DNA of 24,235 bases, taken from positions 1-24,235 of IMG/VR virus record IMGVR_UViG_3300034102_000586; one strand, given 5' to 3'. The stretch is from a virus. The notes under the pieces are model-generated. The model was not told where the DNA came from. It saw only the letters and a list, made by a program, of their open reading frames with translations, and ran no database searches. Both the position numbers and the translations under genes were made by a program. This document shows, piece by piece, positions 13,363 to 21,173 of the stretch (within the stretch, counting starts at the first letter, position 1; each line of letters opens with the position of its first letter).

Positions 13363-13371
13363 ATTTTATCA
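13363..13371 (-). promoter_or_regulatory. Extended -10 promoter for the LamG-like gene
   Basis: TGATAAAAT on the minus strand. Its TGA is also the stop codon of the upstream oxygenase gene. A start about 7 bases downstream gives a short leader containing the AGGAGA ribosome binding site. Confidence 0.5.
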
Positions 13372-13899
13372 CACAATACGTGTAAACCAACGAGGTAATG
13401 TAAACCTTATTCCCTTAGTTATTGGCTTAACTCCATGAATAAAGTTTGGGTTATCTGGAAAACACAAAAGATCTCCAGGCTCTGGCTTAAAGGACATTTC
13501 ATATTTTGGAAAATATATGTCTCCTCCATCATAATCATTATTTAAATAAACCAATGTTGCTATGTCATTTGGCCTTGATGAATCAAAATGTTCGTGCATA
13601 CCTTTTCCTTCAATAAATTTTGCAACATGTGTTTTTTCGTCAATAAAATCTTCAAACTTAAAACTATAACTTTTTAATACAAAGTCATAAACCTTGCGTG
13701 CAACATCTTGAATTTTGTTAAGAATTTCAGGATCTAGCCCTTGTATTTCATGATATGTATGAACCGTAAACTCTTGCTCTCCATTTCCATAATTTGAAAA
13801 TAGATCAGTATATTTTTTTGCATATTCTGTCACTAGAACTGTTTCTTCAAGGTTCATAAAACCTGGAACATATTTAATTTGAGATTTAAAGTCTTCCAT
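13369..13899 (-). CDS. 2OG-Fe(II) oxygenase, prolyl 4-hydroxylase-like
   Basis: This 176-aa protein carries a complete 2-oxoglutarate/Fe(II) dioxygenase set: HxD at His104-Asp106 (MHEHFD), a distal His155 in NFIHGV, and Arg165 ten residues later (KGIRFTLPRWF) to bind 2-oxoglutarate. The segment between (LVYLN..YDGGDIYFP and KPEPGDLLCFP) is the double-stranded beta-helix core of the P4Hc type. Such enzymes hydroxylate peptides or small substrates using O2, 2-oxoglutarate and iron. Here the substrate is unknown: a phage or host protein, or a metabolite. It starts 2 bases after the reductase stop codon, so the two are co-transcribed. Length is typical for phage versions. Confidence 0.85.
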   Translation of the reverse strand: MEDFKSQIKYVPGFMNLEETVLVTEYAKKYTDLFSNYGNGEQEFTVHTYHEIQGLDPEILNKIQDVARKVYDFVLKSYSFKFEDFIDEKTHVAKFIEGKGMHEHFDSSRPNDIATLVYLNNDYDGGDIYFPKYEMSFKPEPGDLLCFPDNPNFIHGVKPITKGIRFTLPRWFTRIV

Positions 13900-13901
13900 A
13901 T

Positions 13902-15932
13902 TTAACCTATCTTTATTTCACATACATCAGTAGTGCAGTATGCCTCACCCTGTGCTTCTAGATTTTCTACCCCATCGTAGATAGCGTCCCAGTTGATTTT
14001 AGCAATCTGTCCTACATAACTATTATACTCTTCTTCTGTAATTTCTGTATAAGGTTGTTGTGGATATACCGTGTTTCCCATAGGCAGGAATGATACCGCT
14101 TTTAATTGTCCTTCGTACATATGTAGTGCTGGAGCAACGTGTTTAGACTCTGTTTCTTTATCAAATGAAAGTGTTACAGACACTCCATTGTCAGACCAAT
14201 ATTTTTGAGCAGTTGCAGCAAGTGCAATTTTTTCAAAAAGGCTAACATCTTTTTCTGCTCTTTCATGTTCTGAAGCAATTGGAAAATATACAACCTTTGT
14301 ATTTGCAGATACAACATCATCTTCTATTTTATATCCAGCAGCCTTAAATAAATGAATCATAGGATCGGAGTCACCAAATCTAATTGCTCTCATAAAGAAC
14401 TTTCCACCTGGACCCCAATGAACTCCTGGAGTTGCACCAGAAAGAATACTTACGCTGCCTGATGGCTTTACTGTTGTGACTCTTATTGATTCACGAACAC
14501 AAAGCCATTCTGAATATTGATGATCATATTTTTTAATATTCAAATATCCTTCGTCCATCCATTCACGAACTATAGGCAAACCATGTTTGTCTGAAAAGGA
14601 AGCAATACCTGTAAGCGATGTTCCAATTCTTCTATTACGTTGCATAATTCCATTTGTTTGTTGCCAATGTGTTGGAACAAGAGTTACCGTTTTACCATAA
14701 AGATATGCAAACTTTAAAGTTCTTAAGAAATCTTCTTTATTTTCATGTCTATTTAAATGAACTTCAACTAATGTGCACAACTCGTATGATTCCAATGGTT
14801 GTTCAGCACATGGGTTAAATCCCATTACTCTGTAGTCTTTTCCATCTGCTGGATCTTTTAATCTACCGTAATTTCTAGCAACATCTAACCAAATAAAACC
14901 TGGTTCTCCATTATTAACTATTAAATCTACATAGTCTTCATACTTAGTTCCAACTGTTGCTGAGATAGAGTTATTAGACATCCAAGCCCAACCTGGATTA
15001 TCTGAATCAAATGAATTTCTTTCTGGAAAAACCTCTGCATTTTTTAAATTAATAAAATCTTTATCTCCAGCAGAACCTAGTGCTAAGGTTGCTGATCTAC
15101 GAACATTTCCTGCAACTACACATGTTCCAATTAAGTTAACAATGTCTACTATTGCTCTGGCATCAAGTTTTTCACCAATTCTTCCACCAATCACCCTATT
15201 AATCTGATTGTGTAATTTAATTAATGGTTCTGGTCCTGACGCTACCCCGCCAAATCCTTTAATTGGAGAGCCAAAAGGTCTTATTAATTCATAACTAAAT
15301 TTTTGTTTTGCTTGACCTGTTCTTAGGTATGAGTTTAACAATAATCTAACAGACTCTACCCAACCTTCTCTGGTATCTGGAATTTCATAAATTGAATCAA
15401 CTTCTGATGGTGCATAGATTGAAAATTCTTTATCTTGTCCAACGGTATCAAATCCAACTCCAATACCAAGCATGAGAGCGTCCATAACCCACGCAAACAG
15501 TGCTCCTGGGTCGTTTCTATCAAGATCCTTAGTAGATACCATGGCACAGTTTTGAAGGGCTGCAGAGTTCCTTTTTTCCATTGTCATGGGGGTTCCAAAA
15601 GCCCACATACCACGACCTGGCGGTGTCCATTTAAGATTAAACATACGATCAAATGCTTCCTGAGCAGACTTTTGAGCCTTATAGTCATTCCAAGGTAGTC
15701 TATTTTCTTTTGCATGATTCTTTTGTACTGAATACATGCCTTCAATTACACGCTTACAAACTTCGTGCCATCTTTCTTTAGTTCCATCTTCTTTAACGCG
15801 GGAATAGGTTCTTATAAAAGTAATTTCACCTAATGAATTGTTTCCAGCATCGTTAAATCCAAATGGGCTATCCATGGTTGTGTATTTTGTTACAAAATCC
15901 TCTGGAAGTTTAAAACTAAAAAAGTCTGACAT
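13902..15932 (-). CDS. nrdJ: Adenosylcobalamin-dependent (class II) ribonucleoside-triphosphate reductase
   Basis: This 676-aa protein matches the monomeric, B12-dependent class II ribonucleotide reductase, which turns ribonucleotides into deoxyribonucleotides. Key residues are all visible: Cys129 (LQNCAMVS) and Cys386 (YELCTLVE) as the active-site thiol pair, Cys375 in FNPCAEQPLE as the thiyl radical residue, with Asn373 and Glu377 beside it, and C-terminal Cys666/Cys671 (YCTTDVCEIKIG) as the shuttle pair. The spacings (11 between the middle two, 5 at the end) equal those of the Lactobacillus leichmannii enzyme (739 aa). Other features: PPGRGMWAFGTP and TTVKPSGSVSILSGATPG. It would supply dNTPs for phage replication without needing oxygen, provided the host has cobalamin. 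It has its own TGCTATACT promoter and an AGGAGA site. Confidence 0.95.
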   Translation of the reverse strand: MSDFFSFKLPEDFVTKYTTMDSPFGFNDAGNNSLGEITFIRTYSRVKEDGTKERWHEVCKRVIEGMYSVQKNHAKENRLPWNDYKAQKSAQEAFDRMFNLKWTPPGRGMWAFGTPMTMEKRNSAALQNCAMVSTKDLDRNDPGALFAWVMDALMLGIGVGFDTVGQDKEFSIYAPSEVDSIYEIPDTREGWVESVRLLLNSYLRTGQAKQKFSYELIRPFGSPIKGFGGVASGPEPLIKLHNQINRVIGGRIGEKLDARAIVDIVNLIGTCVVAGNVRRSATLALGSAGDKDFINLKNAEVFPERNSFDSDNPGWAWMSNNSISATVGTKYEDYVDLIVNNGEPGFIWLDVARNYGRLKDPADGKDYRVMGFNPCAEQPLESYELCTLVEVHLNRHENKEDFLRTLKFAYLYGKTVTLVPTHWQQTNGIMQRNRRIGTSLTGIASFSDKHGLPIVREWMDEGYLNIKKYDHQYSEWLCVRESIRVTTVKPSGSVSILSGATPGVHWGPGGKFFMRAIRFGDSDPMIHLFKAAGYKIEDDVVSANTKVVYFPIASEHERAEKDVSLFEKIALAATAQKYWSDNGVSVTLSFDKETESKHVAPALHMYEGQLKAVSFLPMGNTVYPQQPYTEITEEEYNSYVGQIAKINWDAIYDGVENLEAQGEAYCTTDVCEIKIG

Positions 15933-15978: not shown

Positions 15979-16022
15979 GAGTTTATTAAAATTAAAAACA
16001 CTACTTTTATTTTATTTGTGCG

Positions 16023-16151
16023 TTAGTGAAATGACATTGCTGTATGTTGTTTTGGACTGCAACGTTCACATGATGTATACGTATTTTTAGTATATGGACA
16101 AGTAGTTGAACTTATTTTGTGTCCAATAACAAAACAGATCAACTTATTCAT
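16023..16151 (-). CDS. 42-aa Cys-rich miniprotein (DUF1660-like)
   Basis: This short gene lies in the gap before nrdJ. The product starts MNKLICFVIGHKISS, then TTCPYTKNTYTSCERC, ending MSFH. Its ATG overlaps the stop codon of the upstream oxygenase gene as ATGA, the same junction used by other real genes in this window, and the frame runs 42 codons to TAA. Cys6, Cys18, Cys28 and Cys31 plus His11 could bind a zinc ion; the CERC pair is a typical knuckle. The form 'M..LIC...GHK.........C.RC' matches small prophage proteins grouped as DUF1660, whose function is unknown. It would be translated together with the oxygenase. Confidence 0.65.
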   Translation of the reverse strand: MNKLICFVIGHKISSTTCPYTKNTYTSCERCSPKQHTAMSFH

Positions 16152-16777
16152 GCTAGTGGAACCCAGTGTTGAAGTTCATCGCCGCTCATATACATTAGTG
16201 GAGAAACATCATAAGCAAGTGTAATTCTTGGTTTATCAAAAGGCCAAGGACCTATTCCATGCGGATGTCCAGTTTCAGATAAAATAACTCTATTATTTTT
16301 ATTTATATTTTCAATTGGAGTTGCTTCATGTCCACCAATTTTATAATATGTAACAGATGGCTCTGCATCTATACAATAATATCCATGAAAATTGGGAATA
16401 CCTTTTCCACCTAAATGATCGTGATAATGATTATCTTCTTCAAGTGGTGGATTAACCATTGCGTCTGTATTAAACCAACCCTGCACCATATAGTGTTGTT
16501 TTTTAAAATCAATGTTGTAGTATTCACATGCCTCAACTGTCAAATCTCTAATTGCAGAAAAAATATTGTGTATTGCTGGATTGTAACATTGAAAAACATT
16601 AAATTTAGTTCCTAAATGATGAACACCTTTTGTTGAGTCTGCATACTCTTTTGTTACTTTTGGATATATTCCAGCAAATAAATCTTTTTCAACTTTTAAC
16701 AAATACCTAGACAGTCCAGTTAAATCATTTTGAATATACTTTTCAAAAAACTTATGTTTTGGTTTTTCATCTATCAT
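16148..16777 (-). CDS. 2OG-Fe(II) oxygenase-like protein, paralog B
   Basis: I start this gene at 16777, where ATG overlaps the previous stop as ATGA (a longer frame from 16792 lacks a ribosome binding site). The 209-aa product is a paralog of the gene upstream: both have HKFFE near the start, a helix ending ACEYY.IDF, QGWFN, an HDH motif, NFHGYYC..AEPS.TYY, GHPH, PRIT.AYD and HW.PL at the end. In the first-ATG numbering: His119-Asp120-His121, His171/His173 and Arg184 could form the iron and 2-oxoglutarate sites of a double-stranded beta-helix oxygenase. The 'YY..AEPS.TYY' core resembles the putative 2OG oxygenase family PF13759. The triad is HDH instead of the usual HxD, so catalysis is unproven. 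Confidence 0.72.
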   Translation of the reverse strand: MIDEKPKHKFFEKYIQNDLTGLSRYLLKVEKDLFAGIYPKVTKEYADSTKGVHHLGTKFNVFQCYNPAIHNIFSAIRDLTVEACEYYNIDFKKQHYMVQGWFNTDAMVNPPLEEDNHYHDHLGGKGIPNFHGYYCIDAEPSVTYYKIGGHEATPIENINKNNRVILSETGHPHGIGPWPFDKPRITLAYDVSPLMYMSGDELQHWVPLA

Positions 16778-17439
16778 ACTAATGGAATCCAATGCTGTTC
16801 ATGTTCTTTGCCTACGTGTTTTAAGTCATCTAAAGTCATAACATCATATGCAACGGTAATTCTTGGACCTTCCCAATCCCAGTCTCCTTGAGCGTGTGGG
16901 TGTCCCATTTCTGAAAATATAGCACGGTTATCTATGTTTTTATTTTCTATATCTTTACCAAAAACTCTATAATAAGTTGTAGATGGTTCTGCTTTTACGC
17001 AGTAATATCCATGAAAGTTATCTGGAGCACCAGTATGACCATGATCATGCCAATTTAACTTACCTTTTGTTTTATGGTTAATATTAAACCATCCTTGTAA
17101 CATAAATTTCTTTTTTTCAAAATCTATTTCATAATACTCACAAGCCTCTTTTGCCATATCTTGAATATTTTTATATAAGTTATATATGCCATCAATATGA
17201 AATTGAAACACATTATATTCTCTCCATTTAACGGTAGAGACACTTCCAGATTCTTGCCAAAAGTCTTTAGAATTAACTGGTGTAATGCCGTCTAATTCTA
17301 CTTTTTCAATCATCTGATATCTATCAATTAACTCATTTGCTAAAATATCTAAATCATTATCTAGCGTTCTTTCAAAAAATTTATGTGGCTTTAAAGATTG
17401 ACCAATACCACGTAGTTCTGGTGGTGGACCTTGTTGCAT
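16774..17439 (-). CDS. 2OG-Fe(II) oxygenase-like protein, paralog A
   Basis: This 221-aa protein is the upstream member of a tandem pair. Visible landmarks are HKFFERTLDND (~19-29), REYNVFQFHIDGIYNLYKNI (~73-92), ACEYYEIDFEKKKFMLQGWF, NWHDHGHTGAPDNFHGYYC (His131, Asp132, His133), AEPSTTYYRVF, GHPHAQGDWDW (His180, His182), PRITVAYDVM (Arg193) and a C-terminal HWIPLV. The distal His and Arg are spaced as in 2-oxoglutarate oxygenases, and the core resembles the putative 2OG-Fe(II) oxygenase family PF13759. The family is widespread in marine and cyanobacterial viruses. The substrate is unknown. It has its own TGATACAAT promoter and an AGGAT site; the order A, B, miniprotein is one operon joined by ATGA overlaps. 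Confidence 0.75.
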   Translation of the reverse strand: MQQGPPPELRGIGQSLKPHKFFERTLDNDLDILANELIDRYQMIEKVELDGITPVNSKDFWQESGSVSTVKWREYNVFQFHIDGIYNLYKNIQDMAKEACEYYEIDFEKKKFMLQGWFNINHKTKGKLNWHDHGHTGAPDNFHGYYCVKAEPSTTYYRVFGKDIENKNIDNRAIFSEMGHPHAQGDWDWEGPRITVAYDVMTLDDLKHVGKEHEQHWIPLV

Positions 17440-17464
17440 TTTTATCCTATCTGTTATATAGAAT

Positions 17465-17473
17465 ATTGTATCA
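17465..17473 (-). promoter_or_regulatory. Extended -10 promoter of the oxygenase operon
   Basis: TGATACAAT on the minus strand in the 43-base gap after the Hint protein gene. It would drive the two oxygenases and the miniprotein. The bases just before it form a short inverted repeat (ACTAG-TGT-CTAGT) without a T run. Confidence 0.5.
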
Positions 17474-17482
17474 CACTAGACA

Positions 17483-18727
17483 CTAGTCTATTGGATATAG
17501 GTGGTAAACAAGCACTCCGCTTGCATTTATTAGACCAAAAACTTCTCTACCAAACTCGTAGACATTTCTTTTTTCTTTAACAGAGTCTACTTTGTTTACT
17601 ACTTCATGAACTTCTTGGTTATCAACAAATTTAACCAACTTGTCGCCAAGAGCAACGCTATCTGTCTTCATCATTAGATATTCTGCATCTCTTAAAATTA
17701 ATATTTCTTCTGTATTACTTACTCTGTTATGAATGTCTTCATTAAATATTGTAGTATTTTCTACTTCGTGCATTTTTGTGTATGTAACTTTTGAGTTTAT
17801 ATTTTTAATATTTGTAAGTGATTTAGATTTCCATAATCCTATAGTATCTATATTGGCAAGAGGCATTTCATCAAATACTGAAAGAACAAGTGTATCTTCA
17901 TCTGTTATATCTTTTGCTTTTTTATATCCAGCGTCTGTTAGTATAAGCGAGTGTTCGTCAAAACATATTGGTGAGAAACCAAATACTCTGAATGGTGAAA
18001 AACCAAATACTCTGAATGGAGAAAATCCAAATACGGCGAATGGAGAAAATCCAAATACGGCAAATGGAGAAAATCCAAATACTTGGAATGGTGAGAAACC
18101 AAATACTCCAAATGGTACAAATGAAAATGTTGTAGTTATTTCATTTGATAGTGCAGAATATTCTGAGTTTCCATTAGCGTTAGTTGCATATACTTTGTAC
18201 CGTTGTGCTGTTCCTGGTTCTTGTGCTAGTGCTGCAGAAGTTGTTGTTGCAGTATCTCCTGATTTACCGTCGTTTGATTCCCAATGATAATTTGTTATTG
18301 CTGATCCACCGTTTGCTGGTGCAGTCCATGAAATTTGATCTTGATCAGCGTTTGGTGATGAAGCAGTTGGTGCTGCTGGTGTTGCTGGAACAGTTGTTGC
18401 TGTAATTGAATTTGATGCTGCTGATTCACCTGATGTTCCGTAAGTATTTGTTGCAGTTACTTTAAAAGTATATGCTGTATCTGATTGTAATCCTGTTACT
18501 GTAATTGGAGATGATGCTCCAGTGCCTGTAAAACTACCTGGGGTTGATGTAACTGTAAAGGAGTCTGCTGCATAGGTAGGGTCTGCTGTAAATGTTACTG
18601 TGGCTGCACCATTATTATAGGCCCGACTTATACCAACATTTGTTGCTGTACCAATAGTTGGTGTCTTTGGCATTAAAAAGTCATTAGAGCCTTGAGACTT
18701 CTTACCTGCTTTTTTACCTATTGCCAT
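17483..18727 (-). CDS. FN3-octapeptide repeat-Hint domain protein
   Basis: This 414-aa protein has four parts. Residues 1-20 are basic. Residues ~20-112 and ~113-200 are two fibronectin type III domains (TVTGLQSDTAYTFKVTATNT; ISWTAPANGGSAITNYHW). Residues ~203-254 are six or more copies of VFGFSPFx. Residues 255-414 are a Hint (hedgehog/intein) domain: Cys255 opens block A (CFDEHSLILTDAGYKKAKDI), then ALGDKLVKF and a C-terminal NVYEF...GVLVYH. FN3 domains are common in tail and fiber proteins, so a virion surface protein is likely. The usual block-B His seems to be Glu (SNTEEILI), and the C-terminal Asn is absent, so full splicing is unlikely; cleavage at Cys255 is possible. It lies between fibers and oxygenases with its own promoter and AAGGAGAT site. 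Confidence 0.8.
   Translation of the reverse strand: MAIGKKAGKKSQGSNDFLMPKTPTIGTATNVGISRAYNNGAATVTFTADPTYAADSFTVTSTPGSFTGTGASSPITVTGLQSDTAYTFKVTATNTYGTSGESAASNSITATTVPATPAAPTASSPNADQDQISWTAPANGGSAITNYHWESNDGKSGDTATTTSAALAQEPGTAQRYKVYATNANGNSEYSALSNEITTTFSFVPFGVFGFSPFQVFGFSPFAVFGFSPFAVFGFSPFRVFGFSPFRVFGFSPICFDEHSLILTDAGYKKAKDITDEDTLVLSVFDEMPLANIDTIGLWKSKSLTNIKNINSKVTYTKMHEVENTTIFNEDIHNRVSNTEEILILRDAEYLMMKTDSVALGDKLVKFVDNQEVHEVVNKVDSVKEKRNVYEFGREVFGLINASGVLVYHLYPID
17970..18113 (-). repeat. Six tandem 24-bp repeats encoding VFGFSPFx
   Basis: Six units of exactly 24 bases lie end to end (starting 17970, 17994, 18018, 18042, 18066 and 18090), differing mainly in the codon for the variable residue (Q, A, A, R, R) and in silent sites. 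They are in frame, so copy-number change alters the protein by 8 residues at a time. The array stops right at the Hint cysteine. Confidence 0.9.
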
Positions 18728-18744
18728 GTTATCTCCTTAGTCTT

Positions 18745-18753
18745 ATTATATCA
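18745..18753 (-). promoter_or_regulatory. Extended -10 promoter of the FN3-Hint gene
   Basis: TGATATAAT on the minus strand between the 630-aa fiber gene and the Hint gene, followed by a short leader with AAGGAGAT before the ATG. A small 5-bp stem (AACTG/CAGTT) lies just upstream at the end of the fiber gene, without a T run. Confidence 0.6.
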
Positions 18754-18758
18754 AACTG

Positions 18759-20651
18759 TTATGCAGTTAAATCGCCGTATACAACCCAGGTGTTAGTTGC
18801 TCTCTTGAATAGAGTGCAAGATGACCACCGTGTACGTAATTTGAGACCTGGTGTAGCATTTACTGTTACTCCTGCGTCTCCTGCGATTGTTACTTGACCT
18901 GTACCAGTTTGAAGAATATCAAGTGATGTTCCAATTGGGAAGGCTACTGCTGAATTAAGAGGAATAGTTAGTGTTGTTGCACTAGCACTATCCATTTCTA
19001 TTAAGTCGTCTCTTTCAGTCAATGCTGACAGAGTATAACTTGCTGTCTTTTGAATAATTGGTGTCCGTGAAGGTACACCTTCTAATCTTTGTGTACCGTC
19101 TGCAAATACGATTCCGTTTGCAGTGATGTCTGATGTTGCAGTGATTGAGTTTGCCTCAAGTGTCAAAAGTGCCAAGACATCTAGTGAACCTTGTCCAAAG
19201 TTAACTGTAGTTGCTGGCTCAGTTGTAACACCATCAAACAATTTCCATTTACCGTCTGTAACGTCTTTGACGATACCAGCATGTTTTTGTGTTCCATCAT
19301 TATAAGAAACTACCAAACCTAGATCTGTTACGTTGTTAGCATTTGTGTGTCCAAGTTGTAACATGGTATCTTCAATTTGTAATTGTGTTGCTGATACTAC
19401 TACGTTAGATCCGTTGACAATAAAGTTTCCATCAACTGTTAAATCTTGATCAATTGTTACATTTCCAGTAAAATCTGCTCCTGAAAGGGATGCTAGATTT
19501 CCTAGTGTTGTTACAAGGTTTGTAATTTTATCTTGATTGATTGTTCCTGATATAGAGTTATTTGTAACAGAGTTATCAAGTGGTGTTCTTGCATCAGAAA
19601 GTCTTGCATCATCTGTAAGAACTACTGCCAAGGTATTTAGAATACCGTGTACGTTTGATGTATCAGATTCGTGATTGCTTAAATCTGTTAATGTTACAAG
19701 TGTTGCTGTATTTGATATACCGTGAACATTTGTTATTTCTAGATTATGATCTGAAATTGCATTATCTGTGTATTGTTCTAAATCTGTAACTGCATTTCCT
19801 AATTCTTGTTGAAGATCTATTACTGCATTTCCAACCACATCGTCTGCATAATCATTAGCAGCATTAGCAAAAGAAAGATCTGCATTGTCTAAATACAAAA
19901 CTACGTTTGCAATTGCACAATCTGTATAATCTTCTAAAGCCACTATAGCGTTATCTAGACCCTCTTGTAAAGAGTTTGCAATGTCGTTTATGTTATTTGA
20001 TAGTGTATTAATATTGTTGTCTACATATTCATATGTCTCATCTTGAGCATTGCTGATGCTATTTGTTATAGTTAAAAAGAAATTTTCATCTTCATTAATA
20101 GAGTTTGCTAATTCTTCAAGGGTGTTTAGTGCTTCTGGTGCAAGCCCTATCAGATTAGCAACTGCGTTATCTGTATAATCATTTGCATCTGCTAAAGCAT
20201 TGCCTGCCGCTAAATCAGCGTATGTTTCTAGAGTTGAAACTGCATTAGAAACTGCGTTGTCTGTGTAGTCTTCTGCATCGCTTAATGCGTTTCCTGCTGC
20301 AAAGTCAGCATATTCTTCTAAATCTGAAACTGTATTTGCTACTAAGTTACCTACATCTGTTGATCTAGCAATGCTAGTTGGAATTTGTGCTGTTGGAACT
20401 AAATTGCTTTCATCTAATGTGGCAACACCGTTTGCTGCACCTTTTTGTTCTAATAAAATGTAATCGTCTAGGTTTCCGCCTAGATCTTCTATATTTTTAA
20501 AGTATGGCAAATCATCCCATGCTGTAGAGTTGTCACCTATTTTAAATTGTCCTGTGTCGGTTTCAAAACCAATTTCTCCAGAACCCAGAGTAGGGTTAGC
20601 ATTAGCCCACTGTGTAGCAGTTCCTCTACGTTGTAGCATCCTTGTTGCCAT
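18759..20651 (-). CDS. Tail fiber protein with Mtd-like N-terminal domain
   Basis: This 630-aa protein begins with a module (residues ~1-52: LQRRGTATQWANANPTLGSG, then FETDTGQFKIGDNSTAWDDL) found at the N-terminus of the Bordetella phage major tropism determinant and many marine phage fibers. Residues ~80-330 are a long helical, Asn/Asp/Ala-rich region with repeated 'SDAEDYTDNAV' and 'LEEYADFAAGNAL' units, suited to a trimeric coiled coil. Then follow a beta-helix-like part (FTGNVTIDQDLTVDGNFIVN), the 'VVSATQLQIEDTMLQLG' module, and a common C-terminal fiber domain (TASYTLSALTERDDLIEMDS; FKRATNTWVVYGDL). It would be a host-recognition fiber. I see no C-type lectin or variable-repeat signature of diversity-generating retroelements. 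The gene has a long leader with a small hairpin. Confidence 0.85.
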   Translation of the reverse strand: MATRMLQRRGTATQWANANPTLGSGEIGFETDTGQFKIGDNSTAWDDLPYFKNIEDLGGNLDDYILLEQKGAANGVATLDESNLVPTAQIPTSIARSTDVGNLVANTVSDLEEYADFAAGNALSDAEDYTDNAVSNAVSTLETYADLAAGNALADANDYTDNAVANLIGLAPEALNTLEELANSINEDENFFLTITNSISNAQDETYEYVDNNINTLSNNINDIANSLQEGLDNAIVALEDYTDCAIANVVLYLDNADLSFANAANDYADDVVGNAVIDLQQELGNAVTDLEQYTDNAISDHNLEITNVHGISNTATLVTLTDLSNHESDTSNVHGILNTLAVVLTDDARLSDARTPLDNSVTNNSISGTINQDKITNLVTTLGNLASLSGADFTGNVTIDQDLTVDGNFIVNGSNVVVSATQLQIEDTMLQLGHTNANNVTDLGLVVSYNDGTQKHAGIVKDVTDGKWKLFDGVTTEPATTVNFGQGSLDVLALLTLEANSITATSDITANGIVFADGTQRLEGVPSRTPIIQKTASYTLSALTERDDLIEMDSASATTLTIPLNSAVAFPIGTSLDILQTGTGQVTIAGDAGVTVNATPGLKLRTRWSSCTLFKRATNTWVVYGDLTA

Positions 20652-20664
20652 TTTATCTCCCTGT

Positions 20665-20679
20665 GTAGGTCTTACCTAC
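20665..20679 (-). promoter_or_regulatory. Small hairpin in the leader of the 630-aa fiber gene
   Basis: GTAGGT-AAG-ACCTAC on the minus strand makes a 6-bp stem with a 3-base loop. It lies between the promoter and the GGGAGAT ribosome binding site, about 4 bases from the latter, and could affect translation or mRNA stability. No regulator can be named. Confidence 0.4.
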
Positions 20680-20695
20680 TTTGTATTTTGTTTTA

Positions 20696-20704
20696 ATTAT
20701 AACA
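20696..20704 (-). promoter_or_regulatory. Extended -10 promoter of the 630-aa fiber gene
   Basis: TGTTATAAT on the minus strand in the 69-base gap after the 150-aa gene. A start near 20689 gives a leader of about 38 bases that includes the hairpin. The upstream bases are T/A-rich (TTTTAAAAAAAC) with no clear -35 box. Confidence 0.55.
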
Positions 20705-20720
20705 GTTTTTTTAAAATGTT

Positions 20721-21173
20721 TTAATTAAATTCACTGTCTGGATTTCCACCATCAAATACTGCTGCCCATGAATTTGAAAATGGTGTTCCACCACTTAATG
20801 TAGAAATTTGTGGATCGTCATATTGTTCAGCATCCCAGAATACTGTAACAATTCTTCCGTTACCATCAATTGCTGTATCATGAATGTGATCTGGAATATT
20901 TTGTACATCATTGCTTGTTGCAATTGTAAACCAATCAGTTTCATAATAAACTTTTAATCTTTCTACTGTGGTATCAAACCACATATCCCCATTGTCTGGG
21001 GAAAGAGGGGCAGTATTTGCTACTGGTGTACCAGTTACAGAATCTACGTATTCTTTAGTAGTAGCGTGACTTGAGTGTGTAGGTGTTCCTACTGCTACCG
21101 CGTTTCCAAATGAACCGCCGTTAGTTACGACTAATCCATTCTTGACTTTAAAATCTTTTAGACTTGTAGTCAT
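20721..21173 (-). CDS. Small tail fiber-module protein
   Basis: This 150-aa protein starts with LKDFKVKNGLVVTNGG, the same 'FK.K.GLVV' entry module found in the 554-aa fiber upstream and in marine T4-like fibers. A connecting motif HATTKEYVDSVTG follows, typical of phage fibers, then PLSPDNGDMWFDTTVERLKV, a module that describes fiber collars in several phages, and a polar end ('DEQYDD', 'GTPFSNSWAAVFDGGNPD'). No enzyme motif is seen. It is probably a short accessory or chaperone-like fiber component, or a collar piece. It is translated from an RBS (TTAGGGGG) 8 bases before the ATG and has no promoter of its own, so it belongs to the transcript starting at 23318 or 24088. Confidence 0.65.
   Translation of the reverse strand: MTTSLKDFKVKNGLVVTNGGSFGNAVAVGTPTHSSHATTKEYVDSVTGTPVANTAPLSPDNGDMWFDTTVERLKVYYETDWFTIATSNDVQNIPDHIHDTAIDGNGRIVTVFWDAEQYDDPQISTLSGGTPFSNSWAAVFDGGNPDSEFN

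Follow-up and report, generated by a model that had tools for sequence, protein, structure and literature searches.

Genes coding for repeat arms rich in aromatic residues and proline, with or without a C-terminal Hint domain, usually lie behind a fibre gene, with genes of the prolyl-hydroxylase type downstream of them. This twofold linkage makes the arm a likely candidate substrate of phage prolyl hydroxylases, which is the best new lead of the analysis. The window, i.e., the whole stretch of DNA analysed, is a virus record of 24,235 bases and contains one such gene, composed of two FN3 domains, a repeat arm and a Hint domain (Table 1). The most likely reading of its product, held with slightly better than even confidence, is the precursor of a tail-fibre-associated arm equipped with a one-sided C-terminal Hint processing module. 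The working part would consist of the FN3 domains together with the aromatic/proline repeat, and the Hint module would act on one side only, in the style of a type B BIL or a hedgehog domain. Cys255 would take over the peptide bond that follows the last repeat, water or another nucleophile would then free the arm, and hydroxylase-type enzymes would modify it.

Table 1. Features of the repeat-Hint gene and of its neighbourhood in the window.
Feature	Position	Strand	Basis or remark
FN3-FN3-(VFGFSPFx)6-Hint gene, 414 aa	17483..18727	minus	
FN3 domain 1, about residues 24–112	18392..18658	minus	PF00041 best stretch 38–106; model strands 24–94
FN3 domain 2, about residues 118–199	18131..18376	minus	second fn3 stretch; model strands 121–183
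Aromatic/proline repeat arm, residues 201–254	17966..18127	minus	six VFGFSP units from residue 208
Hint domain (predicted), residues 255–414	17486..17965	minus	AF2 model; Foldseek and VIA-align matches
Cys255 (codon TGT), Hint position 1	17963..17965	minus	
Glu340, at block B His position (TxxH)	17708..17710	minus	
Tyr408-His409, at the inteins' His-Asn place	17501..17506	minus	followed by LYPID and the end
Tail fibre gene, Mtd_N domain, end ...VYGDLTA	18759..20651	minus	upstream across a 31-bp gap; PF18454 1e-11; several PHROGs tail families
phrog_2696-like gene	16774..17439	minus	downstream across a 43-bp gap; phrog_2696 3.7e-8; invariant His and Arg
Second phrog_2696-like gene	16148..16792	minus	phrog_2696 E 0.0021
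2OG-Fe(II) oxygenase gene, HxD...H present	13369..13899	minus	PF13640 9.4e-10

The plus strand of the interval occupied by the repeat-Hint gene is interrupted by stops throughout. A Pfam search of the window protein gave fn3 (PF00041) at 5.7e-9 with two stretches, and the full-length structure model showed two beta-rich parts at about residues 24–94 and 121–183, in agreement with the two FN3 domains proposed by an earlier sequence-only reading. That reading had counted at least six VFGFSPFx units. Six VFGFSP units do occur within residues 208–253, but only five of them are VFGFSPFx, the sixth being VFGFSPI followed by Cys. The single residue Ile254 separates the last VFGFSP from Cys255, so that the proposed start of the Hint domain at this cysteine, after the last repeat, was borne out. 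At the DNA level the arm is a 24-bp tandem repeat of 6.2 copies with 86% match, and synonymous codon differences among the V-F-G-F-S-P units were found in 26 of 90 between-unit comparisons. The repeats were modelled at pLDDT <50 over residues 202–252, a value denoting low confidence and no proof of disorder, and the stacked beta layers suggested for the array found no support.

The predicted Hint fold of residues 255–414, claimed earlier from the letters, is regarded as settled by structure modelling. AlphaFold2, run on this part with 28 sequences, gave a model with pLDDT 95.4 and pTM 0.90. Its Foldseek matches in the PDB, among the 50 listed, were all BIL, intein or hedgehog domains, and VIA-align gave Z scores of 16.1 for Tetrahymena BIL2 (6y75), 15.7 for a clostridial BIL (2lwy) and 15.3 for hedgehog (1at0). 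The alignment consisted of 28 of 31 extracted rows, the window sequence replacing the identical L009, and L022, L027 and L046 being excluded. The profile search with the Hint part that had been proposed was also carried out: two family profiles compared with the PDB at E<=1 gave weak and mixed results, inteins or BILs making up 10 of 14 and 7 of 9 matches and the rest being unrelated. By single-sequence search of the window protein, no Pfam or PHROGs match to Hint was obtained at E<=5, and an NCBIfam search gave nothing useful. The identity of the domain is established by the structure model, and the family profiles point weakly to it.

For the active site, 147 unique Hint-hit ORFs were collected, and subtraction of five with an open 3' end and one truncated at the 5' end left 141 complete domains, 123 of them unique and 90 lying within repeat-pattern loci (among the matches listed). 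Position 1 was Cys in 113 domains and Ser in 28, supporting the N-terminal nucleophile that had been claimed, and the domain start set by the family HMM, which was built from Cys-starting sequences, coincided with the Cys in 113/113 and with the Ser in 28/28 cases. Among 149 well-filled columns, position 1 alone was restricted to two residues, and in no column did a single residue reach 95% of rows. At the position of the block B His the only residues were Glu (55), His (51) and Gln (35). The active-site combinations were Cys-Glu-Tyr-Asn (39), Cys-Gln-His-Asn (30), Cys-His-His-Asn (23, e.g., L019), Ser-His-Phe-Asp (18), Ser-His-His-Asp (9), Cys-Glu-Tyr-His (7, including the window) and 15 others, all 28 Ser-type domains having the block B His together with a terminal Asp. 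Terminal Asn or Asp was present in 126/141 domains and terminal His-Asn in 55/141, and the Tyr-His pair of the window occurred in 7/141. On the Hint tree, Cys/Ser requires at least one change and block B at least six.

The window copy, whose block B reads S337-N-T-E340 and departs from TxxH, lacks the block B His as well as the terminal His-Asn, so that its activity is uncertain. It is, judged by its residues, among the weakest cases of the family, as it has no terminal Asn or Asp, and its cleavage may be slow or absent. The Ile immediately before the nucleophile is shared by 5/141 domains; in intein practice a beta-branched residue at this place slows the reaction. One might see in the window Hint a worn-out, non-cutting domain that merely caps the arm end as a folded unit or serves there for binding. 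This is rather unlikely, and the evidence is divided: the Glu at block B, the Tyr-His in place of His-Asn and the many relatives with Glu or Gln at block B speak for it, whereas the retention of Cys or Ser at position 1 in 141/141 domains, with no other column so held, and the pairing of the three allowed block B residues with set C-terminal residues speak against it. We read these ordered combinations as chemistry that looks retuned, not lost. According to the part of PMC7664689 used here, the block B His is not obligatory in inteins, and several inteins that have lost the His of block B or the penultimate His remain able to splice thanks to compensating changes.

The stretch after the Hint domain is no longer than 34 residues in 141/141 cases, and in the window just five residues come after Tyr-His. 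A C-extein is thus missing, which makes splicing unlikely and leaves the N-terminal reaction alone; an acyl shift at the Hint N-terminus would likely free the FN3-repeat arm. The idea that self-cleavage leaves free repeats stood in part, since the repeats do lie in the would-be N-terminal product, but Glu340 and Tyr408-His409 weaken the case for cleavage. An ordinary intein was ruled out, the C-extein, the terminal His-Asn and a +1 nucleophile being absent, and the terminal His-Asn of type A BILs is replaced by Tyr-His in the window. With Tyr408-His409 at this place, the window domain has no similarity to intein block G, which is the definition of type B BILs in the portion of PMC4031507 consulted, where these domains are described as cleaving only. 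The repeat protein at L344:5024-6088 has a C-terminus that starts like a Ser-type Hint domain and continues in unrelated letters, possibly a broken Hint.

Two other readings of the Hint domain were weighed. By the first, the domain would be a pretoxin Hint (PT-HINT) releasing a C-terminal toxin in the style of polymorphic toxins; a weak PT-HINT match in Pfam was obtained for 2/7 relatives (0.007 and 0.0021), below the cut-off of that family, but the short C-termini of all 141 domains and the fibre context make this reading scarcely credible, and it was rejected since no payload follows the Hint domain. By the second, the Hint domain would transfer the arm to an acceptor such as the fibre, a glycan, a lipid or another chain, as hedgehog does with cholesterol. 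The kept N-terminal nucleophile with variable C-terminal residues and the place of hedgehog among the best fold matches (Z 15.3) would fit such a transfer; however, within the at most 34 residues after Hint there is no acceptor-binding region, relatives without Hint exist and the transfer is hypothetical, so that we hold it to be improbable. One-sided release of the arm is preferred to both.

Repeat ORFs were also collected by a DNA-pattern search alone, in which Hint was not required. At least 191 unique repeat ORFs were obtained; among the matches listed, 106 carried Hint, 67 ended within 60 residues of the last repeat, nine had another C-terminus and nine were given no class. One repeat protein (L240) has a Peptidase_S74 chaperone of endosialidase at the Hint place (PF13884, 6.5e-10); this chaperone cuts itself off phage fibres. 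Judged from these sequences, Hint appears to be a terminal module that can be exchanged, and relatives devoid of it resemble the would-be cleavage product. As many relatives are without Hint, cleavage may be dispensable. Variants of the arm seen by eye include PT or VTP repeats before Hint and FFPPFFPFF-type arms with short tails, and mapping of the repeat type on the Hint tree gave 13 changes.

The N-terminal part appears from sequence to be exchangeable too, because the 91.6-kb contig L060 (IMGVR_UViG_3300042445_000748), which carries a gene identical to that of the window, contains a second repeat-Hint gene (L060:3600-4490) in which PASTA (PF03793, 3.6e-6) replaces FN3 and which follows its own fibre-like gene. 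Over repeat and Hint, L012:6709-7245 and L022:2585-3121 share 537 identical bases, their N-termini being FN3 and PASTA, respectively. This identity may stem from recombination within the repeats or from chimeric assembly; in L014, fibre genes of one site are fused to downstream genes of the other. A search of 84,980 bacterial and archaeal species, one genome each, which covered the two repeat patterns only, gave no match for the FGF pattern and six for the FFxPP pattern, none of which resembled, by eye, the repeat genes described here and one of which was only partly readable.

The neighbourhood is the most informative part of the locus. The gaps of 31 and 43 bp that separate the repeat-Hint gene from its neighbours suggest one transcription unit, and from the Mtd_N fibre gene upstream we infer a virion tail protein. 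Eight terminator-like sites were found in 16000-20800, against a shuffle mean of 2.0; seven of the eight were on the plus strand and the genes are on the minus strand. The best matches of the window portal protein among annotated phages were Streptomyces phages with 47% identity, which hints at an actinobacterial host.

The two adjacent phrog_2696-like genes have invariant His and Arg residues in the alignment and had been candidates for oxygenases. This assignment was dropped, as Pfam, profile comparison and the PDB gave no support: no Pfam oxygenase was found in 24/24 members, the profile comparison with oxygenases gave a probability of 1%, and no oxygenase was among the eight PDB matches of the profile at E<=10. 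Their tie to the arm is looser, loci approached from these genes having a repeat gene in 22/43 cases and none in 17, with four lacking usable context. The one clear hydroxylase gene of the window (13369-13899), whose action on proline is putative, lies 3.6 kb off, beyond a ribonucleotide reductase gene. The latter encodes a B12-dependent enzyme, occupies 13902-15932 within the block of tail genes and has the hydroxylase gene on one side and the phrog_2696-like pair on the other.

Across the family, the product encoded just ahead of the repeat gene terminates in GDLx or GDLxA, like the fibre of the window, in 129 of 156 testable cases (among the matches listed), and a tail-gene context is supported. 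A prolyl-hydroxylase-type gene was found within about 5 kb downstream in 86/108 and upstream in 0/80 cases (among the matches listed), where downstream denotes same-strand genes ending <=5.8 kb away and upstream denotes genes of either strand wholly within 5 kb, and repeat genes whose flank on the side in question was <3 kb were excluded. These headline counts refer to the prolyl-hydroxylase type only, without the phrog_2696-like genes. With the latter counted too, clusters at 70% identity gave 44/51 downstream and 0/48 upstream (among the matches listed). One set of relatives comprised loci of which 41 of 50 were read, and another consisted of the best 80 of 572 and overlapped those contigs.

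The hydroxylase was downstream of FFxPP arms in 38/39 cases with Hint and 13/18 without, and of FGFSPF arms in 21/27 with Hint and 14/24 without (among the matches listed). Since repeat genes without Hint also have hydroxylases, the tie is to the arm and not to Hint. The second repeat-Hint gene of L060 has no hydroxylase gene adjoining. Approached from the enzyme side, a Pro/aromatic repeat protein was present in 57/61 testable loci, some contigs being shared with the repeat-side set; here any Phe/Pro-rich ORF encoded by the same strand was accepted, wherever it lay in the locus, and FN3 was not required. For both this analysis and the GDLx count, phrog_2696-like genes were also considered in determining which enzyme came first in a locus.

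Three or more hydroxylase genes accompanied FFxPP arms in 60/63 and FGFSP arms in 1/47 cases (among the matches listed), a difference that may follow lineage. When repeat type and hydroxylase number were compared in pairs drawn from the tree, three pairs were supported, about two of them agreeing in direction and few or none opposing it; with only three supported independent pairs, significance is out of reach and a lineage effect is possible. In the L049 array, 6/8 genes after the repeat gene match PF13640, five of them above the cut-off. The other two are a DUF6065 (PF19541) gene and a phrog_7084 gene, at L049:8954-9664 and L049:9665-10378, and unlabelled genes of similar size stand at the DUF6065/phrog_7084 place in many relatives. 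The iron ligands HxD...H were invariant in 21/21 rows of the enzyme alignment, including that of window 13369-13899, and the best PDB match of the enzyme profile was prolyl 3-hydroxylase 1 (1.4e-13), followed by prolyl 4-hydroxylases.

The hydroxylase neighbours could nevertheless be unrelated to the arm, as ordinary auxiliary genes that happen to lie after fibre genes, a serious possibility only somewhat short of even. The part of PMC9146016 drawn on here describes many copies in cyanophages, nine of them scattered over the S-SZBM1 genome, and proposes a role of cyanophage 2OG-Fe(II) oxygenases in DNA repair. The three tree pairs with their possible lineage effect, the 8/46 upstream genes found when the search range was extended to 9 kb (among the matches listed), and the 27/42 Hint-less repeat genes with a hydroxylase (among the matches listed), so that the enzymes do not follow Hint, point in the same direction. 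This explanation is opposed by the one-sidedness of the counts within 5 kb, by the frequency of repeat proteins in the enzyme-side loci and by the accumulation of three or more copies beside FFxPP arms. Modification of the arm by the enzymes downstream is put forward as a candidate function. An extended version, in which the hydroxylases would decorate the arm and the Hint thioester would join it covalently to a hydroxyl or amine acceptor in the fibre, is a long shot; if true, this two-enzyme maturation line of an adhesin would be the viral counterpart of collagen hydroxylation and hedgehog transfer.

The combination had been described as unknown in phages. That holds for its role, as none was found for the Hint-fibre architecture in the open-access literature searched, in the sections available of PMC7824862, PMC5259590, PMC7412058, PMC9469726 and others. 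It does not hold for the proteins themselves: uncultured Caudovirales proteins in UniProt and a tail protein of phage NCTB match, the viral matches to the Hint model being named 'Fibronectin type III', 'PASTA_pknB' or 'Hint domain' and the NCTB protein being annotated 'putative phage tail protein, contains intein domain'. Judged from these model matches, the FN3/repeat/Hint architecture is probably already in databases under domain names. Among annotated phages, the window protein and one relative matched a single record, in the FN3 part; a second relative matched NCTB and gave 22 matches in the FN3 region; and no match was obtained for the Hint domains of two relatives or for the adjacent gene.

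One of the auxiliary genes abundant in Baltic Sea viruses codes for prolyl 4-hydroxylase, whose viral use 'remains cryptic' in the words of the excerpt of PMC9301287 used; the open-access texts searched, as far as available, gave no link of phage prolyl hydroxylases to a fibre arm. The linkage reported here points to a definite candidate substrate, namely the repeat arm beside the fibre, and reduces the substrate question to an experiment with a single peptide and a single cloned enzyme. Should the Hint domain work, an autoprocessing step would be added to tail assembly, and unusual natural active sites (Cys-Glu-Tyr-Asn, Cys-Gln-His-Asn and Ser-His-Phe-Asp) would become available for protein chemistry.

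Among known systems, the prolyl 4-hydroxylase of chlorella virus PBCV-1 is likewise virus-encoded; it was characterised with peptide substrates (Eriksson 1999, as cited in the excerpt of PMC9301287), whereas the enzymes described here are known from gene arrays alone. Like Hint, Peptidase_S74 occupies the end of a repeat protein, as in L240. Its fold and chemistry are unrelated to those of Hint. The uncultured Caudovirales phage proteins A0A6J5NYB8 and A0A6J5MFV5 (Fibronectin type III) and A0A6J5NY54 (PASTA_pknB), of 410, 424 and 301 residues, match the window Hint in fold with query TM of 0.86, 0.86 and 0.92, respectively, but they are named after another domain and were matched by the Hint fold alone. 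Phage NCTB (LT598654.1) is similar in that gp136, gp135 and gp132 are tail-region proteins annotated 'intein domain', and the family Hint HMM matched them at 3.8e-22, 3.6e-11 and 4.4e-17, respectively. It differs in having collagen (gp136, repeats before Hint) or Calx-beta (gp132) where the window has FN3 and Phe/Pro repeats, and no hydroxylase match was found in the 30-kb region examined. The three NCTB Hint ORFs lie close together in the tail region (L104:13960-21219), with two short proteins, collagen-like by eye, between them.

The hedgehog autoprocessing domain shares with the window Hint the fold (1at0, Z 15.3), the terminal place and, by prediction, the N-terminal half-reaction alone; the window, with five residues after Tyr-His, leaves no space for a sterol-recognition region, and its acceptor would be hypothetical. 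Type B BILs are alike in the Hint fold (6y75, Z 16.1; 2lwy, Z 15.7; both BIL entries, compared regardless of type), in the nucleophile at position 1 and in the loss of block G, cleavage without splicing being expected. They differ from the window domain, which has Glu in place of the block B His and lies at the C-terminus of a phage protein beside a fibre gene.
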